Below are positions 3,236 through 62,461 of a stretch of DNA of 64,000 nt, in pieces. Source of the stretch: Antedon mediterranea (taxonomy: Eukaryota > Echinodermata > Crinoidea > Comatulida > Antedonidae); the NCBI RefSeq assembly GCF_964355755.1, contig NC_092672.1:2666001-2730000 (forward strand), read 5' to 3'. The position numbers were made by a program, and so were the translations under genes. Below the pieces are notes generated by a model. That model was not told where the DNA came from. It did no database searches and saw nothing but the letters and a program-made list of their open reading frames with translations. Positions within the stretch are counted from its first letter, which is position 1. Each line of letters begins with the position of its first letter.

Positions 3236-3269
3236 GTGTTCAAATTCATGTCTGGCTGTTTTGCAGCGG

Positions 3270-3875
3270 TCATGTGCGAGCCGTCGAGGATGTGACGAAA
3301 TTGGTGGACCATGGGTCTGAATATGATGTCACATCGTGTTTTAGCGACGCTTCCTGATAACAAGGGCGTGTAATGTTTGGGAATTTTGTAAGAATGTAGT
3401 CCCAACTGGACTTAGCCTCAAGGGTGGTAAATATAAGACCGAGAGGCGAAGTTTTGGAGGCGACACCTTGAATACTCAGGTTGGTGGTAGTGTCAATGAG
3501 TCGTCGATTATTCATATCGACTAACAGTCCAAAATGTCTTAAAAAATCAGCCCCTATGATGGGGTGTGTGACGTCTGCGACAACAAATAACCATTGAGAT
3601 GTTCGTCTCAAACCTAAGTCTAAGGTTACAGAGCGATGTCCATAAGTGTTGATAGATGTATTATTTGCGGCAGTCAAAGTAGACTCTTGTCGCCTATGTA
3701 GACGCTCATGGCGAGTAGGTGGAACAACGCTAACTTCTGCCCCAGTGTCTATGAGGAAACGTTGTTTGGATAATTGATTAACAATAAAGAAAAGGCGACT
3801 TACGAATTGACGGCCAGCAACATTCGTCGCATTTAGTTGTCGGCGTTGGAGTTTTCCGAACACGGCGGATTGCAT
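3270..3875 (-). CDS. Ty3-type protease region
   Basis: A 201-residue frame overlapping the gag end by 43 bases, one base back (-1) relative to gag, as expected if expressed by -1 ribosomal frameshifting within 3833-3875. The aspartic-protease motif DTGA is at residues 43-46, followed by a hydrophobic strand typical of retropepsins ([17 protein letters not shown] near 95-110). Its last about 20 residues do not look like pol: near 3330 the frame shifts, and sequence typical of the protease-RT connector continues in the other frame. I infer a small indel in this copy. Confidence 0.88.
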
Positions 3876-4765: not shown

Positions 4766-4785
4766 TTTAAGTTAAATTCGGTATA

Positions 4786-6378: not shown

Positions 6379-6392
6379 TTTGCATATTTAGG

Positions 6393-7377
6393 TAGTCTGG
6401 GTTCCAGACGGAGTTTTGTCTTAATATTAGTAAAAAGATAAATATTTTGGCACATATGGCGTTTCATACGTTTACTACTTGATTTTGGATACTCCGTCTG
6501 GGGAAACACGCACAAGTCACGTGGTTTGACACCAAGAATTCTTGGTGCATACGATTATCCGGTTGACTAGTTTCAGCTGCATGCGATTGGCTACTCACTC
6601 GTACACTGTTTTAATATTCATATTTCAGAATTTCAAAGACTCAACATCTAAGATGATGCGCATGCGCTATTTTACGTTTAGACAATGTGTACTTTTGGGT
6701 ACATCATGAAGGTACCTCCATGGGTACATTGATGAAAGTTTCTGAAGGCTAGAAATGATTTTATCCCTAGTAGTCTGGTAATTATTTGATGGGATTTTTC
6801 CCAAGAACATGAAAACTCGTCTTGATATGATAGGTTAGCTTCTCCGCAAATCAAACATTGATTGAATGGATCATTTATTACGCGGAGATATTTTGATTTA
6901 ATTCCCACCCAGACCCTGTCCTGTTCTGTGTGGTGGTGTAGCCCTGTTGTGTGCCGGTGGTGGTATGTAGGCCTACCTTATTGGCGTTTTATTCGGCAGG
7001 TCATACGTGCGAGTTGAGCAGGACCTACGAAGGAGGCCTAGGCCAAGGACTAAACAATTAATAAACAAAACAACTTGGCAACACGATTTTATATTTCAAC
7101 AGTCTTGATCGTACATTCAGCACTGTTCGTATAGTACTCGATCTTTTTTATTTTGAAACAAAATGATCATTGGCTGATTCGAAATCCATATTTACATACC
7201 GCCCGCCCCATATAGCCAAATACGGTATCGTAACCTACGTCATTCTTATCGGATGCTTGCGGTCTGCAAATCGATTTCTATACGTGTTTCACAAGTCTGT
7301 ATTTTCAGACAAAAATCGCGGTCGAAATAAAAACAAATAAATAAAAAAAAAGACAATACAGACTTGGAGCAAGTCTA
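6393..7377 (+). mobile_element. 985-bp non-autonomous DNA element, copy 1 (Mutator-like by target size)
   Basis: Homologous over its full length, inverted, to 52769-53748. It is flanked by a perfect 9-bp direct repeat ATATTTAGG (6384-6392 and 7378-7386). The ends start TAGTCTGG and (other strand) TAGACTTG. Each end folds on itself: GTCTGG...CCAGAC at the left and AGACTTG...CAAGTCT at the right. There is no transposase frame. A 9-10-bp duplication is characteristic of Mutator-like elements, but the terminal repeats are too short to be sure. Confidence 0.85.
6704..6723. mobile_element. Mini-palindrome insertion (20 bp)
   Basis: TCATGAAGGTACCTCCATGG flanked by GTACA on both sides (6699-6703 and 6724-6728). 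The corresponding place in the other copy of the 985-bp element (near 53435) has a single GTACA and no palindrome, so this is an insertion. Confidence 0.7.
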
Positions 7378-7559
7378 ATATTTAGGGTGCAGCCATGATG
7401 ATTTTGAAGGATACGTTTTTGTATTTGTTGCCCATTCAACAACTCAACGGATGACGTCACTTCAGAATAAACCGAACCGAATATTCACGAACGAAGATTA
7501 CTACAATAGATTTGATCATTATTGATGACTTGCGGAAACGACGAGGTGAAAGCTGCAAC

Positions 7560-7632: not shown

Positions 7633-10600
7633 ATGGCTCCGAGATATGAACTTCTGTACTTTAACGCAAAAGGTTCGGTTGAGCCCGCTCGATTGATGTT
7701 TGCTCAAGCTGGTGTAGAATTCGTGGATACGCGTTTTTCTTCGGAAGAATGGCCCAAAGTAAAACCAGGTATGTGTCGTTGTTTGTAGCCTACACTTAGT
7801 ATGTAGGCAGGGCACGCAGTGTTTAACGCAATCCATGCAATATAGGTTAAAATTAGTTAGATAGTTTGACCGGGTTTCTGTTCCATTTCTTTCTCAGACA
7901 AGAAACGATTTCCGTTCGGTCAGGTTCCAGTTTTGCTGATAGACGACAGAGCACTCCCGCAATCAAGAGCCATTTTTAGATTCCTTGCACGTGAATTTAG
8001 TAAGTTAATTCATGGAGTAAATACTCCATGGTTAATTATTGTACATATCACCCCATTTGAGCCTTTTTCTCGCTTGGTTCAGTGGGAAACAAGCTTTAAG
8101 CTATATCTACTACACAATGCAAACTCAATAACGTAATATATATAATGTATAAAGGCAAGTGATTTGACCAATCAAGACGCGATAGATGATCTATCTCGTC
8201 TTGATTGGTCAAATCACTTACGTTGCGTTTATTACGGTAGCATTAGCAGTAGTCGCATTATTGCTATAGTGCTCGGAATGTAGCTTACCGTTGGCCTATA
8301 TACAATGGCGTAGCGAGTATGAGCGCAGTCACTGGCTAAACCCAGGGGCGCCGGAGCTTATAGGGGCTCCTGAGCAGTGCCCAGAGAGTAAAACATGCAT
8401 TAAAATATGTCGAAGAAAGCTAAAAACGAGGGCCACTTAGGGCTCCTAACCCACCAGGAGGGGCTTCCTCGTACGCCACTTAGGGCTCCTAACCCACCAG
8501 GAGGGGCTTCCTCGTACGCCACTTAGGGCTCCTAACCCACCAGGAGGGGCTTCCTCGTACGCCACTTAGGGCTCCTAACCCACCAGGAGGGGCTTCCTCG
8601 TACGCCACTTAGGGCTCCTAACCCACCAGGAGGGGCTTCCTCGTACGCCACTTAGGGCTCCTAACCCACCAGGAGGGGCTTCCTCGTACGCCACTTAGGG
8701 CTCCTAACCCACCAGGAGGGGCTTCCTCGTACGCCACTTAGGGCTCCTAACCCACCAGGAGGGGCTTCCTCGTACGCCACTTAGGGCTCCTAACCCACCA
8801 GGAGGGGCCTCCTCGTACGCCACTTAGGGCTCCTAACCCACCAGGAGGGGCTTCCTCGTACGCCACTTAGGGCTCCTAACCCACCAGGAGGGGCTTCCTC
8901 GTACGCCACTTAGGGCTCCTAACCCACCAGGAGGGGCTTCCTCGTACGCCACTTAGGGCTCCTAACCCACCAGGAGGGGCTTCCTCGTACGCCACTTAGG
9001 GCTCCTAACCCACCAGGAGGGGCTTCCTCGTACGCCACTTAGGGCTCCTAACCCACCAGGAGGGGCCTCCTCGTACGCCACTTAGGGCTCCTAACCCACC
9101 AGGAGGGGCTTCCTCGTACGCCACTTAGGGCTCCTAACCCACCAGGAGGGGCTTCCTCGTACGCCACTTAGGGCTCCTAACCCACCAGGAGGGGCTTCCT
9201 CGTACGCCACTTAGGGCTCCTAACCCACCAGGAGGGGCTTCCTCGTACGCCACTTAGGGCTCCTAACCCACCAGGAGGGGCCTCCTCGTACGCCACTTAG
9301 GGCTCCTAACCCACCAGGAGGGGCTTCCTCGTACGCCACTTAGGGCTCCTAACCCACCAGGAGGGGCTTCCTCGTACGCCACTTAGGGCTCCTAACCCAC
9401 CAGGAGGGGCCTCCTCGTACGCCACTTAGGGCTCCTAACCCACCAGGAGGGGCTTCCTCGTACGCCACTTAGGGCTCCTAACCCACCAGGAGGGGCCTCC
9501 TCGTACGCCACTTAGGGCTCCTAACCCACCAGGAGGGGCTTCCTCGTACGCCACTTAGGGCTCCTAACCCACCAGGAGGGGCTTCCTCGTACGCCACTTA
9601 GGGCTCCTAACCCACCAGGAGGGGCTTCCTCGTACGCCACTTAGGGCTCCTAACCCACCAGGAGGGGCTTCCTCGTACGCCACTTAGGGCTCCTAACCCA
9701 CCAGGAGGGGCTTCCTCGTACGCCACTTAGGGCTCCTAACCCACCAGGAGGGGCTTCCTCGTACGCCACTTAGGGCTCCTAACCCACCAGGAGGGGCTTC
9801 CTCGTACGCCACTTAGGGCTCCTAACCCACCAGGAGGGGCCTCCTCGTACGCCACTTAGGGCTCCTAACCCACCAGGAGGGGCTTCCTCGTACGCCACTT
9901 AGGGCTCCTAACCCACCAGGAGGGGCCTCCTCGTACGCCACTTAGGGCTCCTAACCCACCAGGAGGGGCTTCCTCGTACGCCACTTAGGGCTCCTAACCC
10001 ACCAGGAGGGGCTTCCTCGTACGCCACTTAGGGCTCCTAACCCACCAGGAGGGGCCTCCTCGTACGCCACTTAGGGCTCCTAACCCACCAGGAGGGGCTT
10101 CCTCGTACGCCACTTAGGGCTCCTAACCCACCAGGAGGGGCCTCCTCGTACGCCACTTAGGGCTCCTAACCCACCAGGAGGGGCTTCCTCGTACGCCACT
10201 TAGGGCTCCTAACCCACCAGGAGGGGCTTCCTCGTACGCCACTTAGGGCTCCTAACCCACCAGGAGGGGCTTCCTCGTACGCCACTTAGGGCTCCTAACC
10301 CACCAGGAGGGGCTTCCTCGTACGCCACTTAGGGCTCCTAACCCACCAGGAGGGGCTTCCTCGTACGCCACTTAGGGCTCCTAACCCACCAGGAGGGGCT
10401 TCCTCGTACGCCACTTAGGGCTCCTAACCCACCAGGAGGGGCTTCCTCGTACGCCACTTAGGGCTCCTAACCCACCAGGAGGGGCTTCCTCGTACGCCAC
10501 TTAGGGCTCCTAACCCACCAGGAGGGGCTTCCTCGTACGCCACTTAGGGCTCCTAACCCACCAGGAGGGGCTTCCTCGTACGCCACTTAGGGCTCCTAAC

Positions 10601-15093: not shown

Positions 15094-15284
15094 AAAGCGT
15101 GGTTCCCACTAGAATGCAATGCAGTGATGTATTGCGTAAACACAAGTGGGAACCGACGACGCAATAGTGCTGTAAACATCGCAGGTTTGATTTCACGCAG
15201 GTGGGGGCACAACACAATTATTAGAAGGGCATTTGCATACGTTGCGTAGATTGCGTTACGCTGCGTCGCTAGTGGGAACCACGA
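15094..15284. mobile_element. TTAA-type miniature element, copy C
   Basis: Starts AAAGCGTGGTTCCCACTAGA and ends TAGTGGGAACCACGA just before TTAA (15285-15288). The middle differs from copies A, B and D but resembles copy E (GTGGGAACCGACGACGC in the centre), so there are two subfamilies. Confidence 0.75.
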
Positions 15285-15288
15285 TTAA

Positions 15289-15425
15289 GCTTGGTTCCCA
15301 CTAGAACGTAACGCAAAGACGTAAACGCAACGCAAGCGAAGTTATAGACAGCAATCACAAGCGAATAAGCCATCGCTTGTGATTGGTCAATTCACTTGCG
15401 TTGCGTCGGTAGTGGGAACCACGCT
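15289..15425. mobile_element. TTAA-type miniature element, copy D
   Basis: GCTTGGTTCCCACTAGAACG at the left and TAGTGGGAACCACGCT at the right, between TTAA at 15285-15288 and TTAA at 15426-15429. It shares its left TTAA with the right end of copy C, so two elements sit back to back. The interior matches the inner element at 5804-5980 in inverted order. Confidence 0.8.
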
Positions 15426-18222: not shown

Positions 18223-21249
<3,027 letters not shown>

Positions 21250-22135
21250 GAAGGCAACCGAATGTCCGACAATAGGACTAGAACCGCACTAATGATTGAT
21301 ATAGTTAGATACAAACACGTGTCATGTTGTGTCGTACGGTACGCAACTTTGGCGAGTCCATGATTCAAGCGCTACGCCATGTTTATATATGCACTGCGTC
21401 AGACCATGGAGGTATAATATCTCCATGGTCAGACTACATGCACGTGTTATGCTTGTTTGTATGTGACGATATTTTAGTTATTACATGGGTAAATGGAACA
21501 TACTGTACTAAAAATTATGTAGATTTGTAGAACATTTAAAAGAAAATAAAAGATACATGTTCTTTCAACAAAAATACAGTTGTGTATGTTTTATGTTGGT
21601 ATCAAAACATTAACAAATTAATGATTCTATACTCTATATTTGATTTGTTGTACTGTGTTACTGTACACTGTTGTAATCCGTCTCATTCTTTTGTAATTGC
21701 ACCATGAGGCATGGAGGTATAATACCTCCTTTTTAAATTTATATTTTAAATTCAAATACTGAAATACAGAGCTTTTATATTAAGAACATAATGCGATTCC
21801 CTGTGTAGTTTATACAATGACTGGGTGCGTACCGGTATATATCTTTGGAACTAGTAAAAACTATCATACCGCCCTCTATAGTTTGATAAGTTTTCTAAAA
21901 ACTCGGGTAAGATCAGATCATATTTCATCGGTATGACAATTCCAATTACTAAATACTTTCGTTAATTATAATTATAGGCCTATGACATAAACTTATGATT
22001 ATAGATTATGGTGCGTTTCTAGATACTATTTAGTATTTGTTTTCTAAATGATATATGAAATGCTAGTACCACCTCGGCCTATAATTCTTATGTGTTGTGA
22101 CTTCCCTATCGTCATGGTTCAATGGGTTTAAGTTT
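21250..22135. other. Intergenic, with a polyadenylation signal and a mini-palindrome
   Basis: 3' region of GST gene 2 (AATAAA at 21545) and AT-rich spacer. A decayed relative of the mini-palindrome, CATGGAGGTATAATACCTCC, is at 21710-21729 without a visible target duplication. No gene seen. Confidence 0.6.
21404..21428. mobile_element. Mini-palindrome insertion (25 bp)
   Basis: CCATGGAG ... CTCCATGG with nine bases (GTATAATAT) between, flanked by TCAGA on both sides (21399-21403, 21429-21433). Confidence 0.7.
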
Positions 22136-26802: not shown

Positions 26803-28921
26803 TCAACTTCTTGAGACAGGCTGCTTTGTTGAATCGCCAGAACTCGCTTTGATATCCAACACCTGTTTAACAGTTGGAGTGTACATTTCCCGTAAAACCA
26901 CTTTCAAGCATTCGTCCGTTGCTATTGCTGACAAACCCCAAACTTTGTGCGCACCTCCTAGAAATACCGGCATAGTGTATGTGAAGCTTGATTGTGTGGG
27001 CGTTGCAGGTTCTCGAAAACGGGTATAACGGGTGAACAGTGGATCTGAAAGGACAGCGATGGGGATGCTGAATATACTTGTAACCTGTATATACAAAAAA
27101 AAGTACAAAGAATTTGATTGGTGAAAAGTTCTATAGCAGAAAACACTGCTTTTGATTGGTGGGATGTTTCAAAACAGAACATTATTATTATTTGTCTGTT
27201 AATTAGGATATTTCATAACAGCAAATACTGCGGAAGGTTCTATATAGAAAACACTGATTTGATTGGTGGAATGTATTGTTTTTTAAAAAATGCTGTTATT
27301 TGATGGAATGTTGTGGAATGTTTCATAACCGAAAACACTGTTATTTGATTGGTAGAATTTTTCATAAAATAAAATACTGTTATTTGATTGGAGGAATGTT
27401 TCATAATTAGCAAATGCTGTTATTTGATTGGTGGAATGTTTCATAACAGAAAACCGTGTTATTTGATTGGTGGAATGTTTCATAACAGAAAACCCTGTTA
27501 TTTGATTGGTGAAATGTTTCATAACAGAAAGCCCTGTTATTTGATTGGTGAAATGTTTCATTAGCAAATGCTGTTGTCTGATTTGTTTTTACCCTCACTC
27601 ACCTCTGATTGATTAAATTTTACTTGATCCAATTCAATTTTTCCTATGTTACATAAAACTGGAGTTACTGCAATTGTCTTGGTCTGTTGAAATAATAAAA
27701 AAAAAAAAAAAACAGAGGGTGAAAAGTTAGCCATTGTTTTTTTTTAGACCATTGTTACAGGGCCTTTAGGATGGTGCTATTTATTATAACATCCCGGTAT
27801 TGTGTGGTAGTATTACATCAAAAGTACATACATAGTCTGGAATAGGGTTTAGCTTTCCCCAGACTTCCACAGAGCTTGGCAGGATATCTATCTCCTCATG
27901 CATTTCTCTCAGACCAGTTGAAATGATGTCAGCATCACCTTCCTGCCATTTACCTCCTGGAAAACTGAAAAACAAAGAGAGAATGGAAAATAATTACTCG
28001 CTTACCAATTCCAAAGTATTGGGTTCAAATCCTGTCCAATGGCAGTTGTTGTTCTGAGAGACATCATGTATGCTACAGAGAATCCTAACTGTATGACTGC
28101 ATCAGGATTATGACATTTTAATTAGATATAATGGTCAAGTTCAGGTTTACTTGCGCTAATGCACAGCTAGAGGCGAGACTATCTTTAGGGCTAGGTTCAA
28201 CCATGGACCTATAAATTAGAAGTCCATGGTTCAACTAATGATAATGCACTTGTCAATTGTATTGCCCACTTTGTGACCCCTTTCATTTGTACAATGTGCA
28301 TCATACCTTATGAATACCATGATTCACCCCTGTTTAAAAAATGTGACTTACCTTTAGGTGACCATGACGCATCCATTTTGATGCACTGTTACCATGTTGT
28401 TTATGATATGATGGGTGGGTGGTAAAGTGACGGACATTGACACACCATTGTTCATTGATGTGACGTACCATCTACTGTAGGTTTTTTGATGCACCCCAGT
28501 GTAAATAATTATTTGTAATGACGCTTCCATGACGCGGGTCGTGTGGGTCACAATTGACAAGTGCATATAAGCGTTGCCGTGTCCTGGACTAACCCTAAAG
28601 ACAATCTCGGTGTGATAAAGTGCAGTAGCGTCGATTGACCTACCTAACTTGACCTCTATGAGATTTAAGCTCTGTTGACCTTAGTGTGAATAAGATGGAT
28701 GGTTGATTGTTCACTGTACACATTGGGATACAAACGGCTGCGTTTAATTTCAACCCTTTCAACATTCTTCTTAGAGGATGTACTTGGTCCATTATCTTTA
28801 TTGCTCTTTCTTTATTATTTGACGAGAAAACATTTTCTGGTATCCAAGAAGAGGATGTTCTGTTGCTATAGTGACAACTACGCATGGAAAAGACAACTTG
28901 ATACCGAAGTGACCGGTACAT
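26803..28921 (-). CDS. NUDT8: NUDT8-like mitochondrial Nudix hydrolase
   Basis: Four exons on the minus strand: 28921-28644, 27964-27832, 27683-27603, 27084-26803; 257 residues. Exon 1 begins with a basic, acid-free leader (MYRSLRYQVVFSMRSCHYSN), a likely mitochondrial presequence, then SILFTLRSTELKSHRGQV. The exon 1-2 junction creates QVSFPGGKW, and the Nudix box GGKWQEGDADIISTGLREMHEEI contains REMHEE, the metal-binding core; the first box Glu is Asp, as in NUDT8/CoA-diphosphatase relatives. Exon 4 has TYTMPVFLGGAHKVWGLSAI, the NUDT8-type C-terminus. The family cleaves CoA and related nucleotide diphosphates. Divergent from GST kappa, 0.9 kb away. Intron 1 holds a foldback element and intron 3 a tandem repeat. 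Confidence 0.9.
27119..27570. repeat. About 39-bp tandem repeat in NUDT8 intron 3
   Basis: About eleven diverged units of the type TTATTTGATTGGTGGAATG plus TTTCATAACAGAAAACACTG. Units vary in length (38-43) and drift toward the edges, so the array is older than the 43-bp and 54-bp arrays. It contains repeated ATTGG (inverted CCAAT) motifs. Confidence 0.85.
28168..28612. mobile_element. Foldback element in NUDT8 intron 1
   Basis: Left GGCGAGACTATCTTTAGGGC and right (other strand) CCGAGATTGTCTTTAGGGTT are inverted repeats, followed inward by GCACTTGTCAATTGT and its complement. The middle contains several ATGATGCA/TGACGCATC-type repeats. No open frame. Confidence 0.75.
28201..28229. mobile_element. 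Mini-palindrome insertion (29 bp)
   Basis: CCATGGAC ... GTCCATGG with 13 bases between, flanked by TTCAA on both sides (28196-28200, 28230-28234). It lies in the left arm of the foldback element; the right arm has no such palindrome. Confidence 0.7.
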
Positions 28922-29833: not shown

Positions 29834-32366
29834 ATGGCTGCGCCTATAAAAAAAACGATAGAGTTGTTTTACGACGTTATATCACCATATTCTTGGCTTG
29901 CATTTGAAGTAATTATTAATAATACACTTCAAAATCTTAGTCTTGACTCTTAGCTACTCTAGCTACAAACTAAAACTAAAACTTAAAGGCAAGAAGTCTA
30001 CTCTAGCCTACTAGATAGCTAGCTAGGCCTAGCCTAGGCCTAGTCCTCCCAAACCATGCATATATGGAGAGTAAATGTCCTACTCCTGGAGGCCTAGCTA
30101 GGCCCTAGTATAGATTTTAGGCCAGACAGGAGGCCAGGCTAAAATAAAAGGCTATGCTGTATGCTCTTCTGTCTGCGTAGGAGCTAGGCTTACTGGCTAC
30201 TAGCTAGGCGGGCCAACAAACAGTGAACATTGTTTGACATGATTGTCTAGCATGATCATTTATTCATTGCATTGTTTTGTTTGTTTTTTTTTTGCATTGA
30301 AAGTTTTCTATTTTGGGACGGCCAACAATCAATCATTGACATTTACATTGAATAATTATTATTTATTGTTTTAGATATTAGGAAGGTACAGGCAAAGATG
30401 GAATATAGACTTGCAATACAAGCCGTTTTTTCTAGGAGGTATAATGCAGGGAGCAGGTGATATAACATTTGTTATTTCTATACTGTATCTAGGTCTGAAG
30501 CATACATGCCAACACTTCCATTTTTGGCCGGGAGACTTCCGTATTTTAGGCTCGTATCTCGGCCAAATATTGTGCTCAATAGCTGTGCTGTAAAAAAATG
30601 TCGTTTATCGTTCATTGACCTTCACACCAAGTGTACCTAAACTAGCACCTGATTAATAATAGAGTTTACGATTTTTTATTTATTTTTTTTTCTGTTTATA
30701 CGTTTATTAATATGGATGATATATCCGAAATAAAAAGAAATTGAAATTGAATAAGTATAAACTAAGATAGTTTGAGTAGCATTCTATAGGATTTTACTTG
30801 TAATATTTAGATGTGGTGAAACTTAACTTATTTTTACATTTTTCAGATAATAAGCCGCCAGGGTTGAATCCTATGAAAGCAGTGTACATGTTTGATGACT
30901 TAGCAATGCAACGTGATTACACTGGTGTTCCGTTTTCAAAATCCGTCCCAACGTCATTCTTTGAACAAAGTAAGTTTGAAGGTTTGCATGGCGAAGAAAA
31001 ACAAAGATTCAGGGACATCATGTTACCGTACCACAAAACTGACTTTTAAATGTGTTAAGAGGATTAGAGTTTCTCTAAATGTATTAAATTATACTTTGTT
31101 ACAGTTTTGATAAATGTCATTTTGTCATTCTAGGTTCTTTGACGGCACAGAGATTTTTGACCGTTGTAAATGACCAACATCCAGATGACCTTGAAGAAGT
31201 ATCAAGACAATTATGGATAAGAATGTGGTCAAAGGTCAACTAGTTCAAACATTTATTTTTTCTATAAAATATAATTATATTAACTTATAATGTATATATC
31301 TCAGACTAAATTTTCCCCATACTCAGGGAAAAATTTCATTTTAAAATTTTGTTTGCAAAATTGCTAATCAAACTGATTTTTTAGTCGAGAAACATAGTTA
31401 TGTATTGTATTTTTTGCTACACATTTTAGAAATGTGTAGCAAAAAAGTTGTTTTGTATAGCTTTTTGCTATGCTACACTGGCGAAATTATTCCCTGCATA
31501 CTAGTATGTTCCCAATTTTAAAACAATCGAACCGCAATGGAATATATAATTTTATGGACTTATTATTACATAAATATTATAATATTATATGTTACATATA
31601 TAACTTTTAAATATTTTTTTTTACAGGATAAAGACATTACAGATCCCACATCCGTTCTTGAGGTATGTGAATATTTAATTTTTTTTTATAAAACTTTTTT
31701 TGCAATCAAAATTACAAAAGGCTGGATTGATATTTTAGTTGATTGTGATGAAAATTTTAATTTAAATTTAATATTATATTATTACATGATAATTATTTAT
31801 TGTGATATCAAATCTACATCTTCAATTATTTTTAGGCAGCCCAGGCTGCTGGAATGTCTGAAGAGGTTGCTAATAAATGCATGTCAAAGGTCAAAGATCA
31901 GTCAACAAAAGAAGAGTTAAAAAGAATAACAGGCATTGCACTCGAAAGTGGTGTAAGTAATTTGAATTTAAAGTTTATTTTTTATTTTTAAAATTAATTC
32001 AATTTACAGTATATATTGGCGATCTGTTGTATACAATTACATATTCAAATAAAAAACGTGATTTTAATTTGTAAAGGCATTTGGCGCACCATGGATATTA
32101 GCTCACAGTGATGGAGAAGTAAAGACATTTTGGGGAACAGATAAAATACCTCTTTTAGCTCATGTAATAGGTAAAAACGCAAACAAATTATCAAATACTT
32201 GTAGTAGGCATACGTATTTTAGTATTTTAAAATCACTGTATTATTAGCAGTATTTTCATCATATCTTTGTCAATGTTTTCATTAGAAATTAATACTGTGA
32301 TAATATTATTTTATACTTACAGGTGAAAAATGGGAAGGTCCATTAAAACCATCATCAAAATTATAG
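29834..32366 (+). CDS. GSTK1: Glutathione S-transferase kappa, peroxisome-targeted
   Basis: Eight exons: 29834-29908, 30375-30456, 30847-30969, 31134-31234, 31627-31662, 31836-31952, 32077-32170, 32323-32366; 223 residues (human GSTK1 has 226). DsbA-like fold: IELFYDVISPYSWLAFE carries the catalytic Ser of SPYS, then FFLGGIMQGADNKPPG, SLTAQRFLTVV, LWIRMWSK, and AFGAPWILAHSDGEVKTFWG near the C-terminus, which closes the glutathione site. The last residues are SKL, a canonical PTS1, so a peroxisomal location is likely; mitochondrial location is also known for the family. The exon 4 donor (AAG/gtcaac) is weak and the exon 7 acceptor (gtaaag) unusual. Exons 4-8 are duplicated at 54186-56083. Confidence 0.93.
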
Positions 32367-33834: not shown

Positions 33835-36800
33835 CATTCATACACAACTATCACATAATGTAATATGGCAGTATGCTCACTGTATACACATTCATACACA
33901 ACTATCACATAATGTAATATGGCAGTATGCTCACTGCATACACATTCATACACAACTATCACATAATGTAATATGGCAGTATGCTCACTGTATACACATT
34001 CACACACAACTATCACATAATGTAATATGGCAGTATGCTCACTGTATACACATTCATACACAACTATCACATAATGTAATATGCCAGTATGCTCACTGCA
34101 TACACATTCATACACAACTATCACATAATGTAATATGGCAGTATGCTCACTGCATACACATTCATACACAACTATCACATAATGTAATATGGCAGTATGC
34201 TCACTGTATACACATTCATACACAACTATCACATAATGTAATATGGCAGTATGCTCACTGTATACACATTCACACACAACTATCACATAATGTAATATGG
34301 CAGTATGCTCACTGTATACACATTCATACACAACTATCACATAATGTAATATGGCAGTATGCTCACTGTATACACATTCATACACAACTATCACATAATG
34401 TAATATGGCAGTATGCTCACTGCATACACATTCATACACAACTATCACATAATGTAATATGGCAGTATGCTCACTGTATACACATTCACACACAACTATC
34501 ACATAATGTAATATGGCAGTATGCTCACTGTATACACATTCATACACAACTATCACATAATGTAATATGCCAGTATGCTCACTGTATACACATTCATACA
34601 CAACTATCACATAATGTAATATGGCAGTATGCTCACTGCATACACATTCATACACAACTATCACATAATGTAATATGGCAGTATGCTCACTGTATACACA
34701 TTCACACACAACTATCACATAATGTAATATGGCAGTATGCTCACTGCATACACATTCATACACAACTATCACAAAATGTAATATGGCAGTATGCTCACTG
34801 TATACACATTCACACACAACTATCACATAATGTAATATGGCAGTATGCTCACTGTATACACATTCACACACAACTATCACATAATGTAATATGGCAGTAT
34901 GCTCACTGCATACACATTCATACACAACTATCACATAATGTAATATGGCAGTATGCTCACTGTATACACATTCATACACAACTATCACATAATGTAATAT
35001 GGCAGTATGCTCACTGTATACACATTCACACACAACTATCACATAATGTAATATGGCAGTATGCTCACTGCATACACATTCATACATACACAACTATCAC
35101 ATAATGTAACATGGCAGTATGCTCACTGTATACACATTCATACACAACTATCACATAATGTAATATGGCAGTATGCTCACTGTATACACATTCACACACA
35201 ACTATCACATAATGTAATATGGCAGTATGCTCACTGCATACACATTCATACACAACTATCACATAATGTAATATGGCAGTATGCTCACTGTATACACATT
35301 CACACACAACTATCACATAATGTAATATGGCAGTATGCTCACTGCATACACATTCATACACAACTATCACATAATGTAATATGGCAGTATGCTCACTGTA
35401 TACACATTCACACACAACTATCACATAATGTAATATGGCAGTATGCTCACTGTATACACATTCATACACAACTATCACATAATGTAATATGTCAGTATGC
35501 TCACTGTATACACATTCACACACAACTATCACATAATGTAATATGGCAGTATGCTCACTGCATACACATTCATACACAACTATCACATAATGTAATATGG
35601 CAGTATGCTCACTGCATACACATTCATACACAACTATCACATAATGTAATATGGCAGTATGCTCACTGCATACACATTCATACACAACTATCACATAATG
35701 TAATATGGCAGTATGCTCACTGCATACACATCCATACACAACTATCACATAATGTAATATGGCAATATGCTCACTGTATACACATTCATACACAACTATC
35801 ACATAATGTAATATGACAGTATGCTCACTGTATACACATTCATACACAACTATCACATAATGTAATATGGCAGTATGCTCACTACATACACATTCATACA
35901 CAACTATCACATAATGTAATATGGCAGTATGCTCACTGCATACACATTCACACACAACTATCACATAATGTAATATGACAGTATGCTCACTGCATACACA
36001 TTCATACACAACTATCACATAATGTAATATGGCAGTATGCTCACTGTATACACATTCATACACAACTTTCACATAATGTAATATGACAGTATGCTCACTG
36101 CATACACATTCATACACAACTATCACATAATGTAATATGGCAGTATGCTCACTGTATACACATTCATACACAACTATCACATAATGTAATATGATAGTAT
36201 GCTCACTGCATACACATTCACACACAACTATCACATAATGTAATATGGCAGTATGCTCACTGTATACACATTCATACACAACTATCACATAATGTAATAT
36301 GGCAGTATGCTCACTGTATACACATTCACACACAACTTTCACATAATGTAATATGGCAGTATGCTCACTGTATACACATTCACACACAACTATCACATAA
36401 TGTAATATGGCAGTATGCTCACTGTATACACATTCACACACAACTATCACATAATGTAATATGGCAGTATGCTCACTGTATACACATTCACACACAACTA
36501 TCACATAATGTAATATGGCAGTATGCTCACTGTATACACATTCATACACAACTATCACATAATGTAATATGGCAGTATTCTCACTGCATACACATTCACC
36601 CACAACTATCACATAATGTAATATGGCAGTATGCTCACTGCATACACATTCATACACAACTATCACATAATGTAATATGGCAGTATGCTCATTGTATACA
36701 CATTCACACACAACTATCACATAATGTAATATGGCAGTATGCTCACTGTATACACATTCACACACAACTATCACATAATGTAATATGGCAGTATGCTTAC

Positions 36801-37894
36801 TGTATACACATTCACACACAACTATCACATATTGTAATATGGCAGTATGCTCACTGTATACACATTCACACACAACTATCACATAATGTAATATGGCAGT
36901 ATGCTCACTGTATACACATTCATACACAACTATCACATAATGTAATATGGCAGTATGCTCACTGCATACACATTCATACATAACTATCACATAATGTAAT
37001 ATGGCAGTATGCTCACTGCATACACATTCATACACAACTATCACATAATGTAATATGGCAGTATGCTCACTGCATACACATTCATACACAACTATCACAT
37101 AATGTAATATGGCAGTATGCTCACTGTATACACATTCATACACAACTATCACATAATGAAATATGGCAGTATGCTCACTGTATACACATTCACACACAAC
37201 TATCACATAATGTAATATGGCAGTATGCTCACTGCATACACATTCATACACAACTATCACATAATGTAATATGGCAGTATGCTCACTGTTTACACATTCA
37301 TACACAACTATCACATAATGTAATATGACAGTATGCCCTCTGCATACACACTCATACACAACTATCACATAATGTAATATGGCAGTATGCTCACTGTATA
37401 CACATTCATACACAACTATCACATACTGTAATATGGCAGTATGCTCACTGCATACACATTCATACACAACTATCACATAATGTAATATGGCAGTATACTC
37501 ACTGTATACACATTCATACACAACTATCACATAATGTAATATGGCAGTATGCTCACTGCATACACATTCATACACAACTATCACATAATGTAATATTGCA
37601 GTATGCTCACTGCATACACATTCATACACACCTATCACATAATGTAATATTGCAGTATGCTCACTGTGTACACATTCACACACAACTATCACATAATGTA
37701 ATATGGCAGTATGCTCACTGCATACACATTCATACACAACTATCACATAATGTAATATGGCAGTATGCTCACTGCATACACATTCTTACACAGCTATCAC
37801 ATAATGTAATATGACAGTATGCTCACTGTATACACATTCATACACAACTATCACATAATGTAATATGGCAGTATGCTCACTGCATACACATTCA
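33835..37894. repeat. 54-bp minisatellite, 75 units
   Basis: Unit CATTCATACACAACTATCAC, ATAATGTAATATGGCAGTAT, GCTCACTGTATACA. First and last CATTCA are 4,054 bp apart, equal to 75 x 54 plus one 4-bp insertion (CATA near 35085). Units differ mostly by transitions at two sites (TGT/TGC before ATACAC; CATAC/CACAC). Because 54 is a multiple of three, frames stay open on both strands: minus strand 888 and 428 residues of an 18-residue repeat (YECVYSEHTAILHYVIVV), plus strand HIHTQLSHNVIWQYAHCI. Most differences change the amino acid (Tyr/Cys), so I see no sign of protein selection and treat it as non-coding. Confidence 0.95.
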
Positions 37895-38873
37895 CATTTA
37901 CTACAAATGAAATATATCAAGATATTATGAAATAGGCACTGGTTTAGGCCTACTTTTGGTTTTCTAAAGATACAAACAAGATCATATTTTGTGCAAATTA
38001 GTGTTTCATTGAAAAGTCAAGCATACAAGTCTAAATTGAACATATCATATCATTTAATCATATATTATTTATTTAATCATATATTTATATTTATTTAATC
38101 ATATATTAGAAGGAAATAATTGTTTATAATAAGATTCATGTTTTAATGTAAAATAATTTAAAGAAAGAGAGAGTGCAGAACACAATAATAAATATCATTT
38201 CTGTCTGTTCTTAGCTAGTGTCCCACCAAGTCTTTACAATATTGAAATACTTACATTACAATAATCCCTAGGCCTAGTCTACTTACAAACTTCAACTTTA
38301 GCAATCGAATGACTGAATGAATGAAAAGAACATACCTCAAATATGTGCAGACTAGACAAGCCGAGTTGAGGCAGTCAGTAGTAGGCTAGTAAGTAGGCCT
38401 AGCACAGACAAACAAGGTATAAGTTCTAGACCTGTTTAGGCTAGACCTAGGCGAGGCCTATGCCTACACAGTTTTCAGCTAGGCTAGGCCTAGCAATAGG
38501 CCTAGTCTAGAGCCTAGCCTAGCCTACTTTCTAGGCCGCCTAGCCTAGATAGACTCATCATTTTTTAGACATTGTTGCCTATGTTGTAGCCTACCTACTC
38601 TAGTAATAATAATAGTGCTTGATGGACAATTTATACAGATTTTTGTTCTTTGTGGCTGCAGACATTCAGTCAGATCGGGAGTCAGATAGAACCAAATATT
38701 AAATGAACGAATTTGAAAATGAAAATCTCCTCTACTATACTAGCTGCTGCTAGCTGCTGCAGCTGTTTTGATTACGCGTATGATGTAGACACGCGCGCGA
38801 CAAGGAAGATGAATATGGATGAATTTGATGATCGCGACCAAATATATAACTAAAACAAAATGTATTTCTTTAA
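36561..38873. repeat. 2,313-bp tandem duplication, left copy
   Basis: Spans the last 25 units of the 54-bp array plus the unique spacer to TTTCTTTAA. Every variant unit I checked (ATTGTAATAT, GTATGCCCTC, CACTCATACAC) recurs 2,320 bp to the right, with no difference found. Confidence 0.93.
37895..38873. other. Spacer between array and NLR gene, no gene seen
   Basis: Rich in TAGGCCTA (38390-38540). Occurs three times: here, at 40215-41193 (identical) and, diverged, at 61511-62250. No exon recognised. Confidence 0.6.
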
Positions 38874-38880
38874 TAATAAT

Positions 38881-41193
38881 AATGTAATATGGCAGTATTC
38901 TCACTGCATACACATTCACCCACAACTATCACATAATGTAATATGGCAGTATGCTCACTGCATACACATTCATACACAACTATCACATAATGTAATATGG
39001 CAGTATGCTCATTGTATACACATTCACACACAACTATCACATAATGTAATATGGCAGTATGCTCACTGTATACACATTCACACACAACTATCACATAATG
39101 TAATATGGCAGTATGCTTACTGTATACACATTCACACACAACTATCACATATTGTAATATGGCAGTATGCTCACTGTATACACATTCACACACAACTATC
39201 ACATAATGTAATATGGCAGTATGCTCACTGTATACACATTCATACACAACTATCACATAATGTAATATGGCAGTATGCTCACTGCATACACATTCATACA
39301 TAACTATCACATAATGTAATATGGCAGTATGCTCACTGCATACACATTCATACACAACTATCACATAATGTAATATGGCAGTATGCTCACTGCATACACA
39401 TTCATACACAACTATCACATAATGTAATATGGCAGTATGCTCACTGTATACACATTCATACACAACTATCACATAATGAAATATGGCAGTATGCTCACTG
39501 TATACACATTCACACACAACTATCACATAATGTAATATGGCAGTATGCTCACTGCATACACATTCATACACAACTATCACATAATGTAATATGGCAGTAT
39601 GCTCACTGTTTACACATTCATACACAACTATCACATAATGTAATATGACAGTATGCCCTCTGCATACACACTCATACACAACTATCACATAATGTAATAT
39701 GGCAGTATGCTCACTGTATACACATTCATACACAACTATCACATACTGTAATATGGCAGTATGCTCACTGCATACACATTCATACACAACTATCACATAA
39801 TGTAATATGGCAGTATACTCACTGTATACACATTCATACACAACTATCACATAATGTAATATGGCAGTATGCTCACTGCATACACATTCATACACAACTA
39901 TCACATAATGTAATATTGCAGTATGCTCACTGCATACACATTCATACACACCTATCACATAATGTAATATTGCAGTATGCTCACTGTGTACACATTCACA
40001 CACAACTATCACATAATGTAATATGGCAGTATGCTCACTGCATACACATTCATACACAACTATCACATAATGTAATATGGCAGTATGCTCACTGCATACA
40101 CATTCTTACACAGCTATCACATAATGTAATATGACAGTATGCTCACTGTATACACATTCATACACAACTATCACATAATGTAATATGGCAGTATGCTCAC
40201 TGCATACACATTCACATTTACTACAAATGAAATATATCAAGATATTATGAAATAGGCACTGGTTTAGGCCTACTTTTGGTTTTCTAAAGATACAAACAAG
40301 ATCATATTTTGTGCAAATTAGTGTTTCATTGAAAAGTCAAGCATACAAGTCTAAATTGAACATATCATATCATTTAATCATATATTATTTATTTAATCAT
40401 ATATTTATATTTATTTAATCATATATTAGAAGGAAATAATTGTTTATAATAAGATTCATGTTTTAATGTAAAATAATTTAAAGAAAGAGAGAGTGCAGAA
40501 CACAATAATAAATATCATTTCTGTCTGTTCTTAGCTAGTGTCCCACCAAGTCTTTACAATATTGAAATACTTACATTACAATAATCCCTAGGCCTAGTCT
40601 ACTTACAAACTTCAACTTTAGCAATCGAATGACTGAATGAATGAAAAGAACATACCTCAAATATGTGCAGACTAGACAAGCCGAGTTGAGGCAGTCAGTA
40701 GTAGGCTAGTAAGTAGGCCTAGCACAGACAAACAAGGTATAAGTTCTAGACCTGTTTAGGCTAGACCTAGGCGAGGCCTATGCCTACACAGTTTTCAGCT
40801 AGGCTAGGCCTAGCAATAGGCCTAGTCTAGAGCCTAGCCTAGCCTACTTTCTAGGCCGCCTAGCCTAGATAGACTCATCATTTTTTAGACATTGTTGCCT
40901 ATGTTGTAGCCTACCTACTCTAGTAATAATAATAGTGCTTGATGGACAATTTATACAGATTTTTGTTCTTTGTGGCTGCAGACATTCAGTCAGATCGGGA
41001 GTCAGATAGAACCAAATATTAAATGAACGAATTTGAAAATGAAAATCTCCTCTACTATACTAGCTGCTGCTAGCTGCTGCAGCTGTTTTGATTACGCGTA
41101 TGATGTAGACACGCGCGCGACAAGGAAGATGAATATGGATGAATTTGATGATCGCGACCAAATATATAACTAAAACAAAATGTATTTCTTTAA
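38881..41193. repeat. 2,313-bp tandem duplication, right copy
   Basis: Identical to 36561-38873 as far as read, joined to it by TAATAAT (38874-38880). It restarts the 54-bp array (38881-40214, about 25 units). The right-hand segmental copy has no such duplication, so it is newer than the segmental event or an assembly artefact. Confidence 0.93.
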
Positions 41194-52758: not shown

Positions 52759-52768
52759 AGTACTAGTC

Positions 52769-53748
52769 TAGACTTGCCCCAAGTCTGTATTATCTTTTTT
52801 TTTTATTTATTTGTTTTTATTTCGACCGCGATTTTTGTCTGAAAATACAGACTTGTGAAACACGTATAGAAATCGATTTGCAGACCGCAAACATACGATA
52901 AGAATGACGTAGGTTATCATACCGTATTTGGCTATATGGGGCGGGCGGTATGTAAATATGGATTTCGAATCAACCAATGATCATTTTGTTTCAAAATGAA
53001 AGAGATCGAGTACGTAGGCCTACCAGTGCTTAATGTACGATCGAGACTGTTGAAATATAAAATAGTAATGCCAAGTTGTTTTGTTTATTAATTGTTTAGT
53101 CCTTGGCCTAGGCCTCTTTCGTAGGTCCTACCATGGAGACTCCATGGTCCTACTCAATCGCACGTATGACCTGCCAAATAAAACGCCAATGAAGTAGGCC
53201 TACATACCACCGGCACACAACAGGGCTACACCACCACACAGAACAGGACAGGGTCTCAGTGGGAATTAAATCAAAATTATCTCCGCGTAATAAATGATCC
53301 ATTCAATGTTTGATTTTCGGAGAAGCTAGCCTATCATATATCAAGACGAGTTTTCATGTTTCAAAGATCCCATCAAATGTTTACCAGACTACTAGGCATA
53401 TAAAATAATTTCTAGCCTTCAGAACTTTCATAAATGTACCCAAGTTAAGTACACATTGTCTAAACGTAACATAGCGCATGCGCATCATCTTAGTTGTTGA
53501 GTCTTTGAAATTCTGAAATATGAATATTTACACGGTGTACGAGTGAGTAGCCAATCGCATGCAGCTGAAACTAGTCAACCGGATAATCGTATGCACCAAG
53601 AATTCTTGGTGTCAAACCACGTGACTTGTGCGTGTTTCCCCAGACGGAGTATCCAAAATCAAGTAGTATACGTATGAAACGCCATCTGTGCCAAAATATT
53701 TATCTTTTAACTAATATTAAGACAAAACTCCGTCTGGAACCCAGACTA
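52769..53748 (-). mobile_element. 985-bp-type non-autonomous DNA element, copy 2 (980 bp)
   Basis: Inverted relative to copy 1 at 6393-7377. Flanked by a perfect 10-bp direct repeat AGTACTAGTC (52759-52768, 53749-53758). It begins TAGACTTG and ends CAGACTA, with the same self-folding ends. It lies just before the right-hand segmental duplicate and may have been present when that block was copied. Confidence 0.88.
53131..53147. mobile_element. Mini-palindrome insertion (17 bp)
   Basis: CCATGGAGACTCCATGG between TCCTA (53126-53130) and TCCTA (53148-53152). Copy 1 of the host element has one TCCTG and no palindrome at the matching place (near 7023). Confidence 0.75.
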
Positions 53749-54547
53749 AGTACTAGTCGTACAGAATGTGGGCCAAGGGGGAATAACGGTTGTACACCTT
53801 AGCAAAAGGAACAACTAAGGATATTAATCTGTACACTCAGAAACCACCCAAGTACGTGAGGACATATCGACACTAAGCACTGTATAATAATGTACTATAA
53901 GAGTGCTGCGTGCTATTTAATCATTTTGTTAGGCTTTGTGAACATGTATAATTGTGTTAGATCATTTTAGATTTGTAATATTACCGCTTAAATTATTTAC
54001 TAGAAAATGTATATTGTATATTCATTATGTTACTATAATTATGGTCGTCGTCGAGGAAGAGGAGCCATACTGCAAAACTGACTTTAATTGTTAATCCCAC
54101 ATGCTATGGGAGAATTAGAATTTCTATTAATTTATTAAATCATACTTGTCACAATTTTGATGAAAAATGTCATTTTGTCATTCAGGTTCTTTGACGGCAC
54201 AGAGATTTTTGACCGTTGTAAATGACCAACATCCAGATGACCTTGAAGAAGTATCAAGACAATTATGGATAAGAATGTGGTCAAAGGTCAAGTAGTTTAA
54301 AACATTTATTTTTTCTATTATAATATAATTATATTAACTTACTTAAAATGTATATATCTAATTCTAAACTAACTAAATTTTCACCATATTAGTATGTTCC
54401 CAATTTTCAAACAATCAAACCCCAATGGAATATATAATTATCTTATTATTACATATACAAATATTATAATATTTTTTATATAACACCTAAATAAATTTCT
54501 GTCATTTGATTGGACGATTGTGGGTCACATGGCGTGCAATAGTACGC

Positions 54548-57451: not shown

Positions 57452-60400
57452 CATTCATACACAACTATCACAATGTAATATGGCAGTATGCTCACTGTAT
57501 ACACATTCATACACAACTATCACATAATGTAATATTGCAGTATGCTCACTGCATACACATTCATACACAACTATCACATAATGTAATATGGCAGTATGCT
57601 CACTGTATACACATTCATACACAACTATCACATAATGTAATATGGCAGTATGCTCACTGTATACACATTCATACACAACTATCACATAATGTAATATGGC
57701 AGTATGCTCACTGTATACACATTCATACACAACTATCACATAATGTAATATGGCAGTAAGCTCACTGTATACACATTCACACACAACTATCACATAATGT
57801 AATATGGCAGTATGCTCACTGTATACACATTCATACACAACTATCACATAATGTAATATGGCAGTAAGCTCACTGTATACACATTCACACACAACTATCA
57901 CATAATGTAATATGGCAGTATGCTTACTGCATACACATTCATACACAACTATCACATAATGTAATATGGCAGTATGCTCACTGTATACACATTCATGCAC
58001 AACTATCACATAATGTAATATGGCAGTATGCTTACTGCATACACATTCATACACAACTATCACATAATGTAATATGGCAGTATGCTCACTGTATACACAT
58101 TCATGCACAACTATCACATAATGTAATATGGCAGTATGCTCACTGCATACACATTCATACACAACTACCACATAATGTAATATGGCAGTATGCTTACTGC
58201 ATACACATTCATACACAACTATCACATAATGTAATATGGCAGTATGCTCACTGCATACACATTCATACACAACTATCACATAATGTAATATGGCAGTATG
58301 CTCACTGCATACACATTCATACACAACTATCACATAATGTAATATGGCAGTATGCTCACTGCATACACATTCATACACAACTATCACATAATGTAATATG
58401 GCAGTATGCTCACTGTATACACATTCATACACAACTATCACATAATGTAATATGGCAGTATGCTTACTGCATACACATTCATACACAACTATCACATAAT
58501 GTAATATGGCAGTATGCTCACTGTATACACATTCACACACAACTATCACATAATGTAATATGGCAGTATGCTTACTGTACACATTCACACACAACTATCA
58601 CAAAATGTAATATGGCAGTAAGCTCACTGTATACACATTCATACACAACTATCACATAATGTAATATGGCAGTAAGCTCACTGTATACACATTCACACAC
58701 AACTATCACATAATGTAATATGGCAGTATGCTCACTGTATACACATTCACACACAACTATCACATAATGTAATATGGCAGTATGCTCACTGTATACACAT
58801 TCATACACAACTATCACATAATGTAATATGGCAGTATGCTCACTGTATACACATTCATACACAACTATCACATAATGTAATATGGCAGTATGCTCACTGT
58901 ATACACATTCATACACAACTATCACATAATGTAATATGGCAGTATGCTCACTGTATACACATTCATACACAACTATCGCATAATGCAATATGGCAGTATG
59001 CTCACTGCATACACATTCACACACAACTATCACATAATGTAATATGTCAGTATGCTCACTGTATACACATTCACACACAACTATCACATAATGTAATATG
59101 GCAGTATGCTCACTGCATACACATTCATACACAACTACCACATAATGTAATATGGCAGTATGCTCACTGCATACACATTCATACACAACTATCACATAAT
59201 GTAATATGGCAGTATACTCACTGCATACACATTCATACACAACTATCACATAATGTAATATGGCAGTATGCTCACTGTATACACATTCATACACAACTAT
59301 CACATAATGTAATATTGCAGTATGCTCACTGTATACACATTCATACACAACTATCACATAATGTAATATGGCAGTATGCTCACTGTATACACATTCACAC
59401 ACAACTATCACATAATGTAATATGGCAGTAAGCTCACTGCATACACATTCATACACAACTATCACATAATGTAATATGGCAGTATGCTCACTGCATACAC
59501 ATCCATACACAACTATCACATAATGTAATATGGCAGTATGCTCACTGTATACACATTCACAGACAACTATCACATAATGTAATATGGCAGTATGCTCACT
59601 GCATACACATCCATACACAACTATCACATAATGTAATATGGCAGTATGCTCACTGTATACACATTCACACACAACTATCACATAATGTAATATGGCAGTA
59701 TGCTTACTGTATACACATTCATACACAACTATCACATAATGTAATATGGCAGTATGCTCACTGTATACACATTCATACACAACTATCACATAATGTAATA
59801 TGGCAGTATGCTCACTGCATACACATTCATACACAACTATCACATAATGTAATATGGCAGTATGCTCACTGCATACACATTCATACACAACTATCACATA
59901 ATGTAATATGGCAGTATGCTCACTGTATACACATTCATGCACAACTATCACATAATGTAATATGGCAGTATGCTCACTGCATACACATTCATACACAACT
60001 ATCACATAATGTAATATGGCAGTATGCTCACTGCATACACATTCATACACAACTATCACATAATGTAATATGGCAGTATGCTCACTGCATACACATTCAT
60101 ACACAACTATCACATAATGTAATATGGCAGTATGCTTACTGTATACACATTCATACACAACTATCACATAATGTAATATGGCAGTATGCTCACTGTATAC
60201 ACATTCATACACAACTATCACATAATGTAATATGGCAGTATGCTCACTGCATACACATTCATACACAACTATCACATAATGTAATATGGCAGTATGCTCA
60301 CTGCATACACATTCATACACAACTATCACATAATGTAATATGGCAGTATGCTCACTGTATACACATTCATACACAACTATCACATAATGTAATATGGCAG

Positions 60401-61510
60401 TATGCTCACTGTATACACATTCACACACAACTATCACATAATGTAATATGGCAGTATGCTCACTGCATACACATTCACACACAACTATCACATAATGTAA
60501 TATGGCAGTATGCTCACTGTATACACATTCACACACAACTATCACATAATGTAATATGACAGTATGCTCACTGTATACACATTCATACACAACTATCACA
60601 TAATGTAATATGGCAGTATGCTCACTGTATACACATTCATACACAACTATCACATAATGTAATATTGCAGTATGCTCACTGTATACACATTCATACACAA
60701 CTATCACATAATGTAATATGGCAGTATGCTCACTGTATACACATTCATACACAACTATCACATAATGTAATATGGCAGTATGCTCACTGCATACACATTC
60801 ATACACAACTATCACATAATGTAATATTGCAGTATGCTCACTGTATAGGCCTACACATTCATACACAACTATCACATAATGTAATATGGCAGTATGCTCA
60901 CTGTATAGACATTCACACACAACTATCACATAATGTAATATGGCAGTATGCTCACTGTATACACATTCATACACAACTATCACATAATGTAATATGGCAG
61001 TATGCTCACTGCATACACATTCATACACAACTATCACATAATGTAATATGGCAGTATGCTCACTGCATACACATTCACACACAACTATCACATAATGTAA
61101 TATGGCAGTATGCTCACTGTATACACATTCATACACAACTATCACATAATGTAATATGGCAGTATGCTCACTGTATACACATTCACACACAACTATCACA
61201 TAATGTAATATGGCAGTATGCTCACTGTATACACATTCATACACAACTATCACATAATGTAATATGGCAGTATGCTCACTGCATACACATTCATACACAA
61301 CTATCACATAATGTAATATGGCAGTATGCTCACTGCATACACATTCATACACAACTATCACATAATGTAATATGGCAGTATACTCACTGCATACACATTC
61401 ATACACAACTATTACATAATGTAATATGGCAGTATGCTCACTGAATACACATTCACACACAACTATCACATAATGTAATATGGCAGTATGCTCACTGCAT
61501 ACACATTCAC
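57452..61510. repeat. 54-bp minisatellite, second array, 75 units
   Basis: Same unit as 33835-37894. First and last CATTCA are 4,052 bp apart: 75 x 54 with two 2-bp losses (near 57470 and 58571) and one 6-bp gain (GGCCTA at 60848-60853). Variant order does not match the first array. Minus-strand frames of 985 and 379 residues are open for the same arithmetic reason. Confidence 0.95.
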
Positions 61511-62461
61511 TACAAATGAAATATATCATATATATTTATTATTTATAAAATAAGTATATTTTATATTTATAAAATAAAATAGGCACTGGTTTAGGCCTAC
61601 TTTTGGTTTTCTGAAGATACAAACAAAATAATATTTTGTGAAAATTAATGTTTCATTGAAGAGTCAAGCATACAAGTGTCAGATAAATTGAACATATCAT
61701 ATAGGCCTAGGCCTAGGCCTATATTTAATCATATATTAGAAGGAAATAATTGTTTATAAGATTCATGTTTTAATGTAAAAGTCGAGTTGAGGCAGTCAGT
61801 AGTAGGCTAGTAAGTATGCCTAGCACAGGCAAACAAGGTATAAGTTCTAGACCTATTTAGGCTAGACCTAGGCCTACACAGTTTTTAGCTAGCTAGGCCT
61901 AGCCTAGTCTAGTCTCTAGAGAGAGCTTAACCTACTTTCTAGGCCGCCTAAATAAACTCATCATTTTTTAGGCATTGTTGCCTAGGCCTATGTTTTAGCC
62001 TACCTACTCTAGTAATAATATAGTGCTTGATGAACAATTTATACAGATTTTTGTTCTATGTGGCTGCAGACATTGAGTCAGATAGATCCAAATAAAATGA
62101 ACGAATTTGAAAATGAAAATCATAATTATATCTAGCTGCTGCAGCTGTTTTGATTACGCGTATGATGTAGACACGCGCACGACAAGGAAGCTGAATATGG
62201 ATGAATTTGATTATCACGACCAAATATATAACTAAATCAAAGTTTATTTCTTTAAAAACTACAATTTAAATAACAAATTATTACTAAACAATTTTTATAA
62301 CATGTCTATTAATTACATGTCATTTTTATCACAGATACAATTCTATTTTTTAATTACAATATTGACACTTAAGTACTGCGAATTTTACAAAATTAATGCG
62401 CTCTTTATATGAATTGAGACGTAGTACATACTACTGTAGTAGGCGGATGATGATCGTGAAA
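61511..62461. other. Spacer between second array and NLR gene 2
   Basis: Diverged counterpart of 37895-38873 and the NLR gene 1 3' flank. It has an extra GGCCTA run at 61703-61721. No gene. Confidence 0.6.

Follow-up and report, generated by a model that had tools for sequence, protein, structure and literature searches.

Short palindromes between 7-bp repeats in a feather-star genome are probably excision footprints of a cut-and-paste transposon

Cut-and-paste transposons often depart with little trace. Drosophila P elements have ends that start with CA, and hAT elements have YARNG ends and make 8-bp target duplications. According to excerpts of the published accounts, an excision footprint consists of an overhang flanked by target duplications; Tc1/mariner leaves 2-3 nt, piggyBac leaves nothing, and hAT excision forms hairpins on the flanks (PMC3878927). 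Excerpts from other work state that Drosophila P cuts 17 nt inside its ends and makes an 8-bp duplication (PMC7776569), that Galileo, a member of the P superfamily in Drosophila, makes 7-bp target duplications (PMC3573991), and that 94 putative excisions in rice have filler with a mean of 13 bp (PMC4423477). In the literature that we searched, scars of this kind are not described from any crinoid.

The palindromes described here were identified in a stretch of 64,000 nucleotides of Antedon mediterranea DNA (the window; G000:C3:2666001-2730000), and the genome searched comprises 354 Mb in 18 contigs. An NLR reading frame of the window is 100% identical to a protein of A. mediterranea. The palindrome CCATGGAGACTCCATGG lies at 53131-53147, where the original prediction had placed it. 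The 5-bp target duplication assigned to it was wrong: exact 7-bp direct repeats occur at five of five window sites, and in the 5-bp register two bases of the repeat (G and C/T) had fallen inside the palindrome. We rejected the shorter duplication, as repeats of length 5 occur near shuffle level in the masked window (7 vs 4.55), whereas length 7 is clean. Four further window sites had been proposed as relatives and do form a family with it, all five consisting of a 7-bp repeat, CATG..CATG and the same 7 bp. The features are as follows.

53125-53131, + strand: left 7-bp target duplication GTCCTAC
53132-53146: insert CATGGAGACTCCATG, 15 bp, the corrected register of the palindrome noted originally
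53147-53153, + strand: right 7-bp target duplication GTCCTAC
6705-6722: insert CATGAAGGTACCTCCATG, 18 bp, in copy 1 of a 985-bp element; GGTACAT at 6698-6704 and 6723-6729
8011-8030: insert CATGGAGTAAATACTCCATG, 20 bp; GTTAATT at 8004-8010 and 8031-8037
21405-21427: insert CATGGAGGTATAATATCTCCATG, 23 bp; GTCAGAC at 21398-21404 and 21428-21434
28202-28228: insert CATGGACCTATAAATTAGAAGTCCATG, 27 bp; GTTCAAC at 28195-28201 and 28229-28235
21710-21729, + strand: CATGGAGGTATAATACCTCC, near-copy of the 21405 palindrome, lacking both the CATG end on the right and a direct repeat
7018-7024, - strand: GTCCTGC, one base off GTCCTAC; empty counterpart, in the sister 985-bp element, of the 53132 insert
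53434-53440, - strand: empty counterpart, in copy 2 of the 985-bp element, of the 6705 insert; the + strand reads ATGTACC

The near-copy at 21710-21729 is probably a decayed family member. Two longer pairs in the window, of 6,256 and 118 bp, also combine 7-bp repeats with CATG ends, but their ends are weaker and we attribute them to chance.

Alignment of the two 985-bp copies places the sister copy at 6393-7377, on the strand opposite to copy 2. It is alignable on both sides of the 53132 insert, has the target once and lacks the palindrome, which confirms the empty site reported earlier. The alignment also provides the second empty site, so that there is one in each direction between copies 1 and 2. 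The presence/absence variation expected by the original prediction is therefore observed, between repeat copies of one genome. The reciprocal empty sites imply two insertion-like events after the copies separated. Each of the 985-bp elements (6384-7386 and 52759-53757) appears, by eye, to lie between 9-bp target repeats (ATATTTAGG; AGTACTAGT), which suggests that they are independent transposon insertions.

Other repeats and inverted sequences occur in the window, along with one gene start.

33835-40214 and 57452-61514: two arrays of one 54-bp unit, both strands open for hundreds of codons
8432-14070: 43-bp unit x 131, 99% match, young-looking; a gene start at about 7634, glutathione transferase-like by eye, is about 0.8 kb away
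851-4771, - strand: Gypsy-like retrotransposon frames (gag, protease and pol by eye)
15269-15304: 36-bp palindrome with arms CTAGTGGGAACCA, a putative member of another short inverted family; the arm is also found near 6370 and in a 56-bp repeat at 5925
31324-31496: 173 bp with inverted ends CAGGGAAAAATT / CAGGGAATAATT (11/12) and a direct repeat of 6 bp, CATACT; may be a small transposon

With tandem arrays masked, the window contains 64 CATG..CATG pairs with a span of 8-60 bp, and five of them are flanked by an exact 7-bp repeat, where base composition predicts 0.006. The other 15 palindromic tetramers form 2,139 pairs, none with such a repeat. A motif-free scan of the masked window (arms of at least 6/7) recovered exactly the same five sites at length 7, against 0.55 per shuffle and a maximum of 2. 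A further 210 kb of other DNA, with no tandem-repeat filter applied, gave 2/164 for CATG and 6/12,161 for the other tetramers. The window and sequences L001-L021 together form a 274-kb set, which was extended by 50 kb and 40 kb to 364 kb. In the 274-kb set, a motif-free scan requiring perfect 7-bp arms identified 9 sites at repeat length 7 vs 0.2 per resampled set. Eight of these nine have CA..TG ends; the ninth lies within a repetitive tract. Repeat lengths 4, 5 and 6 are also above resampling (18 vs 3.0, 10 vs 0.8 and 4 vs 0.0), and only one of these sites has CA ends. Thus, short local palindromes have other sources too. At repeat length 8 there are no CA-ended sites in 274 kb. The additional 50 kb yielded three sites at length 7 (arms of at least 6/7), two of CA type, and the 40-kb block (L027-L030) one site that is not CA-type, which we count as a miss.

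Exact 7-bp repeats flank 31 CA..TG inserts in the 364 kb; the arms match well in 11 (7-8 of 8, or 7 of 7) and poorly in the other 20 (at most 5 of 8), which we left out. L017:5264 and L020:7968 count as one, both being copies of a single larger repeat (98% over 267 bp). The duplication has the consensus G-T-Y-N-N-A-Y (G in 9/11, T in 8/11, C/T in 10/11, two free positions, A in 9/11 and C/T in 10/11). A relaxed scan for CATGGAG-like ends returned 11 rows, whereas none of 12 shuffled end motifs returned more than 1. The excess of direct repeats in the flanks that had been anticipated is clear where flanks could be read, at 7 bp.

Genome-wide, CATGGAG-N(1-30)-CTCCATG matches 2,507 sites vs 12 for the reversed pattern; these are matches to the end motifs, with the 7-bp repeat read at 11 sites only. 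Inserts of 35-65 bp (CATGGAG-N(21-51)-CTCCATG) occur at 442 sites, with 7 for the control. Among 50 listed N(1-30) matches, 45 are 17-34 bp long, and among 50 listed longer inserts, 22 are 35-38, 12 are 39-46, 9 are 47-59 and 7 are 62-64 bp long. From these 50 listed per search, the estimate per length class is about 111 at 15-34 bp, about 49 at 35-38 bp and about 13 at 39-46 bp, and the listed matches of both searches give an estimated 2,220 or so candidate scars of 15-34 bp in the CATGGAG class. Abundance thins above 34-38 bp, not strictly at 34 = 2 x 17. Some of the 62-64-bp inserts may be two scars that share one repeat between them. Three end motifs follow one another at an exact 7-bp spacing at C1:2816779-2816877, and two do so at C1:3317626-3317701, a pattern to be expected if one target were used repeatedly. 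A 794-aa P-type open frame, at C1:2823415, lies some 7 kb away from the triple site.

Sister classes have the ends CAGGGAG and CAAAGATAG. The 7-bp repeat is common to both, although some members are imperfect.

L011:6889: CAGGGAG ends, CCCTTAG repeats
L021:8760: CAGGGAG ends, one mismatch in the repeat
L023:2576: CAGGGAG ends, GATAGAT repeats
L001:9436: CAAAGATAG ends, GTCATAC repeats

The CAAAGATAG palindrome at L011:7869 was rejected as a 7-bp site, with flanks matching at 5/7 by eye, no better than at other offsets. Sites with the same ends have different joints: CAGGGAGTTGTACTCCCTG in L011, CAGGGAGTTGTAACTCCCTG in L021 (with one repeat mismatch) and CAGGGAGTTCTAATAACAACTCCCTG in L023. Likewise, CAAAGATAGT arms enclose two different centres in L001 and L011. 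Two sites are lopsided: L009:4223, whose repeat has one mismatch, and L021:8884, which has an exact repeat around a 12-bp insert and may be a chance occurrence.

The L023 scar can be read as 17+9 or 18+8 nt, one arm being CAGGGAGTTGTTATTAG followed by the other stub. Its 17-mer occurs at 169 genome sites (control, 0), and adjacent pairs within 20 kb are expected about 1.07 times by chance. Inverted pairs among the 100 listed of these sites, and a lone end in the window, are given below.

18936-18952, + strand: lone sister-class end CAGGGAGTTGTTATTAG, one of the 169 sites, 18 nt common with the L023:2576 arm
C1:15412606-15415138: CAGGGAG inverted pair, 2,533 bp
C1:21378171-21380717: CAGGGAG inverted pair, 2,547 bp
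C1:29252604-29255146: CAGGGAG inverted pair, 2,543 bp
C2:6308856-6311409: CAGGGAG inverted pair, 2,554 bp

The lone end has no partner within -10 to +15 kb. The four pair lengths lie within 21 bp of one another, which points to an element family, and the kb-scale CAGGGAG pairs are the putative parent-type elements of that sister class. The same 100 sites include one further inverted pair of 4,014 bp and four of 38-74 bp; an inverted pair of 11,615 bp, an outward pair of 11,120 bp and a same-strand pair of 2,627 bp were left aside.

We did not identify a full-length CATGGAG element in the 274 kb, using a scan for repeats plus inverted ends, nor in 90 kb more. These scans of 364 kb yielded only other inverted repeats or weak ends, and a candidate with an 8-bp repeat in L027-L028 was rejected as the inside of a larger inverted repeat. 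CATGGAGGTATWATA occurs at 155 genome sites (control, 4). Among the 100 of these that were listed there is no kb-scale inverted pair of lone ends, except for one 7.2-kb spacing in which the partner site is itself a palindrome. Of the same 100 sites, 26, at dispersed places, carry one exact 23-bp palindrome, CATGGAGGTATWATACCTCCATG. Its inner 11 nt, GGTATWATACC, are nearly self-complementary, and 34 minus 11 is 23.

We conclude that the mini-palindromes are probably excision footprints of a cut-and-paste transposon whose enzyme likely belongs to the P/THAP9 superfamily or a near relative. A transposon with inverted ends starting in CA (CATGGAG, CAGGGAG or CAAAGATAG) would insert and duplicate a 7-bp G-T-Y-N-N-A-Y target. 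Its transposase would later make a wide staggered cut, at the element edge on one strand and about 17 nt further into the element on the other, as in Drosophila P, leaving each flank with a single-stranded tail of at most 17 nt of the element end. End joining would then pair the tails or trim them at the middle and seal the gap, producing a 7-bp repeat, two facing stubs and a second 7-bp repeat. Because the facing stubs repeat one sequence in inverse orientation, the scar would be palindromic, and because trimming would vary, scars would range from 15 to about 34 bp and differ at their centres. A cut 17 nt inside the ends, as made by P, limits the stubs to 17 nt per flank and the untrimmed joint to 34 bp. 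While the duplications themselves are observed, the element would once have been present at each scar. This feather-star genome thus appears to hold thousands of excision scars as a record of past jumps.

Excision working like that of P is supported, with a P/THAP9 enzyme or a close relative as the most probable agent. P-type transposase domains are present in the genome, with at least 12 PF21788 matches and at least 35 PF21787 matches. Three copies lie in open frames of 794 aa and have equal scores.

C1:2823415: 794-aa P-type frame
C3:37950354: 794-aa P-type frame
C8:6208861: 794-aa P-type frame

No P-domain match lies inside the five listed kb-scale CAGGGAG pairs (2.5-4.0 kb; 100 of 169 sites listed), and for this reason we do not assign the CAGGGAG elements to P. 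These kb-scale copies may be non-autonomous. A tblastn search of the 364 kb with 120 P-type transposases gave no match. A search of P proteins gave 125 matches, with no crinoid name among the 120 listed; many entries are nameless and the word filter limits the reach, so that this search says nothing against P in Antedon. One CATGGAGGTATWATA site, at C4:14293511, is 1.3 kb from a P-type match at C4:14291632-14292221, although its orientation is not that of a right end.

Several findings count against the footprint reading: the lack of a full-length CATGGAG element in the 364 kb, the position of the P domains outside the listed CAGGGAG pairs, the thinning of lengths at 34-38 bp rather than strictly at 34, and the 40-kb block with no CA-type site. 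The recurrence of CATGGAGGTATWATACCTCCATG is unit-like and needs a favoured joint, which the nearly self-pairing inner 11 nt can explain; a mobile 23-bp unit could account for it as well. The original prediction left the choice between mobile mini-palindromes and a repair footprint. Its insertion signature, empty site and family all stand, and the footprint is better supported than the mobile unit. We prefer it because lengths vary up to about 34-38 bp, centres differ, and kb-scale elements with the same 17-nt ends exist. It is unlikely that the palindromes are mobile in themselves, as hairpins of 15-34 bp inserted by a resident transposase that needs only CATGGAG ends. Target duplications with empty sites, the 2,507 pattern sites and the 26 dispersed copies of CATGGAGGTATWATACCTCCATG with no full-length partner among the 100 listed would agree with mobility, but the lengths spread over 15-38 bp and do not conform to a fixed length or sequence. 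Members with the same ends vary at the centre, some are lopsided, and in one class the 17-nt end is shared with kb-scale elements. Two transposase-bound ends require separate DNA arms and inner binding sites, for which 15-27 bp is generally too short, and we know of no MITE as small as 15-34 bp. We similarly consider it improbable that at least the 23-bp CATGGAGGTATWATACCTCCATG is transposable via a resident P-like transposase with 7-bp duplications, which would make it the smallest known mobile DNA of any animal.

Chance palindromes, or template switching during replication with no transposon, are scarcely credible as a source. Template switching can generate palindromes, and short palindromes with 4- to 6-bp repeats are indeed above resampling, but neither process predicts exact 7-bp repeats, CATGGAG ends at thousands of sites and elements with the same ends, and both are contradicted by the counts (5 vs 0.006 in the window and 2,507 vs 12 in the genome). 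It is possible, though less likely, that the footprints derive from a non-P cut-and-paste transposon, undescribed or poorly studied, with a wide staggered cut and a 7-bp duplication. The odds of this alternative overlap with the odds of the reading that we favour; the two differ in nothing but the enzyme. It is consistent with the lack of P domains inside the listed 2.5-kb elements, and CAGGG and CAAAG fit the YARNG ends of hAT. CATGG does not match YARNG, however, and the 8-bp duplication expected of hAT has no CA-ended counterpart in the 274 kb. The excerpted account of hAT gives a target, NTNNNNAN, which G-T-Y-N-N-A-Y resembles, but also places the hairpins on the flanks, so that element ends would not stay behind (PMC3878927). 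The P-type transposases in the genome also argue against a non-P enzyme.

For the P-type footprints that we favour, departure apparently leaves scars that carry a recognisable motif and are countable within one genome, and they far outnumber the parent elements seen. If this is true, past jumps, the repair pathway (annealing vs trimming) and target preference are directly measurable in a crinoid. The scars resemble Drosophila P footprints in having the duplication on both sides, retained inverted-repeat ends, CA ends and a putative wide (17-nt) stagger. They differ in having 7-bp rather than 8-bp duplications, other end sequences and a transposase unlinked to the ends, and they are natural and numerous, whereas the footprints of P are laboratory events. 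Duplications in the P superfamily are 7 or 8 bp long, and the 11 exact repeats in 364 kb are all of 7 bp. Galileo shares the 7-bp target duplications, although its own inverted ends are very long. MITEs also have inverted ends, target duplications and high copy number, but the Antedon inserts have no inner sequence, are only 15-34 bp long and vary in length and centre. As in rice, natural excision scars are read from genome sequence. However, the rice scars belong to other superfamilies and mostly show flank deletion or filler, whereas those in Antedon keep long element stubs and, unlike those in rice, are recognisable by motif in a single genome.
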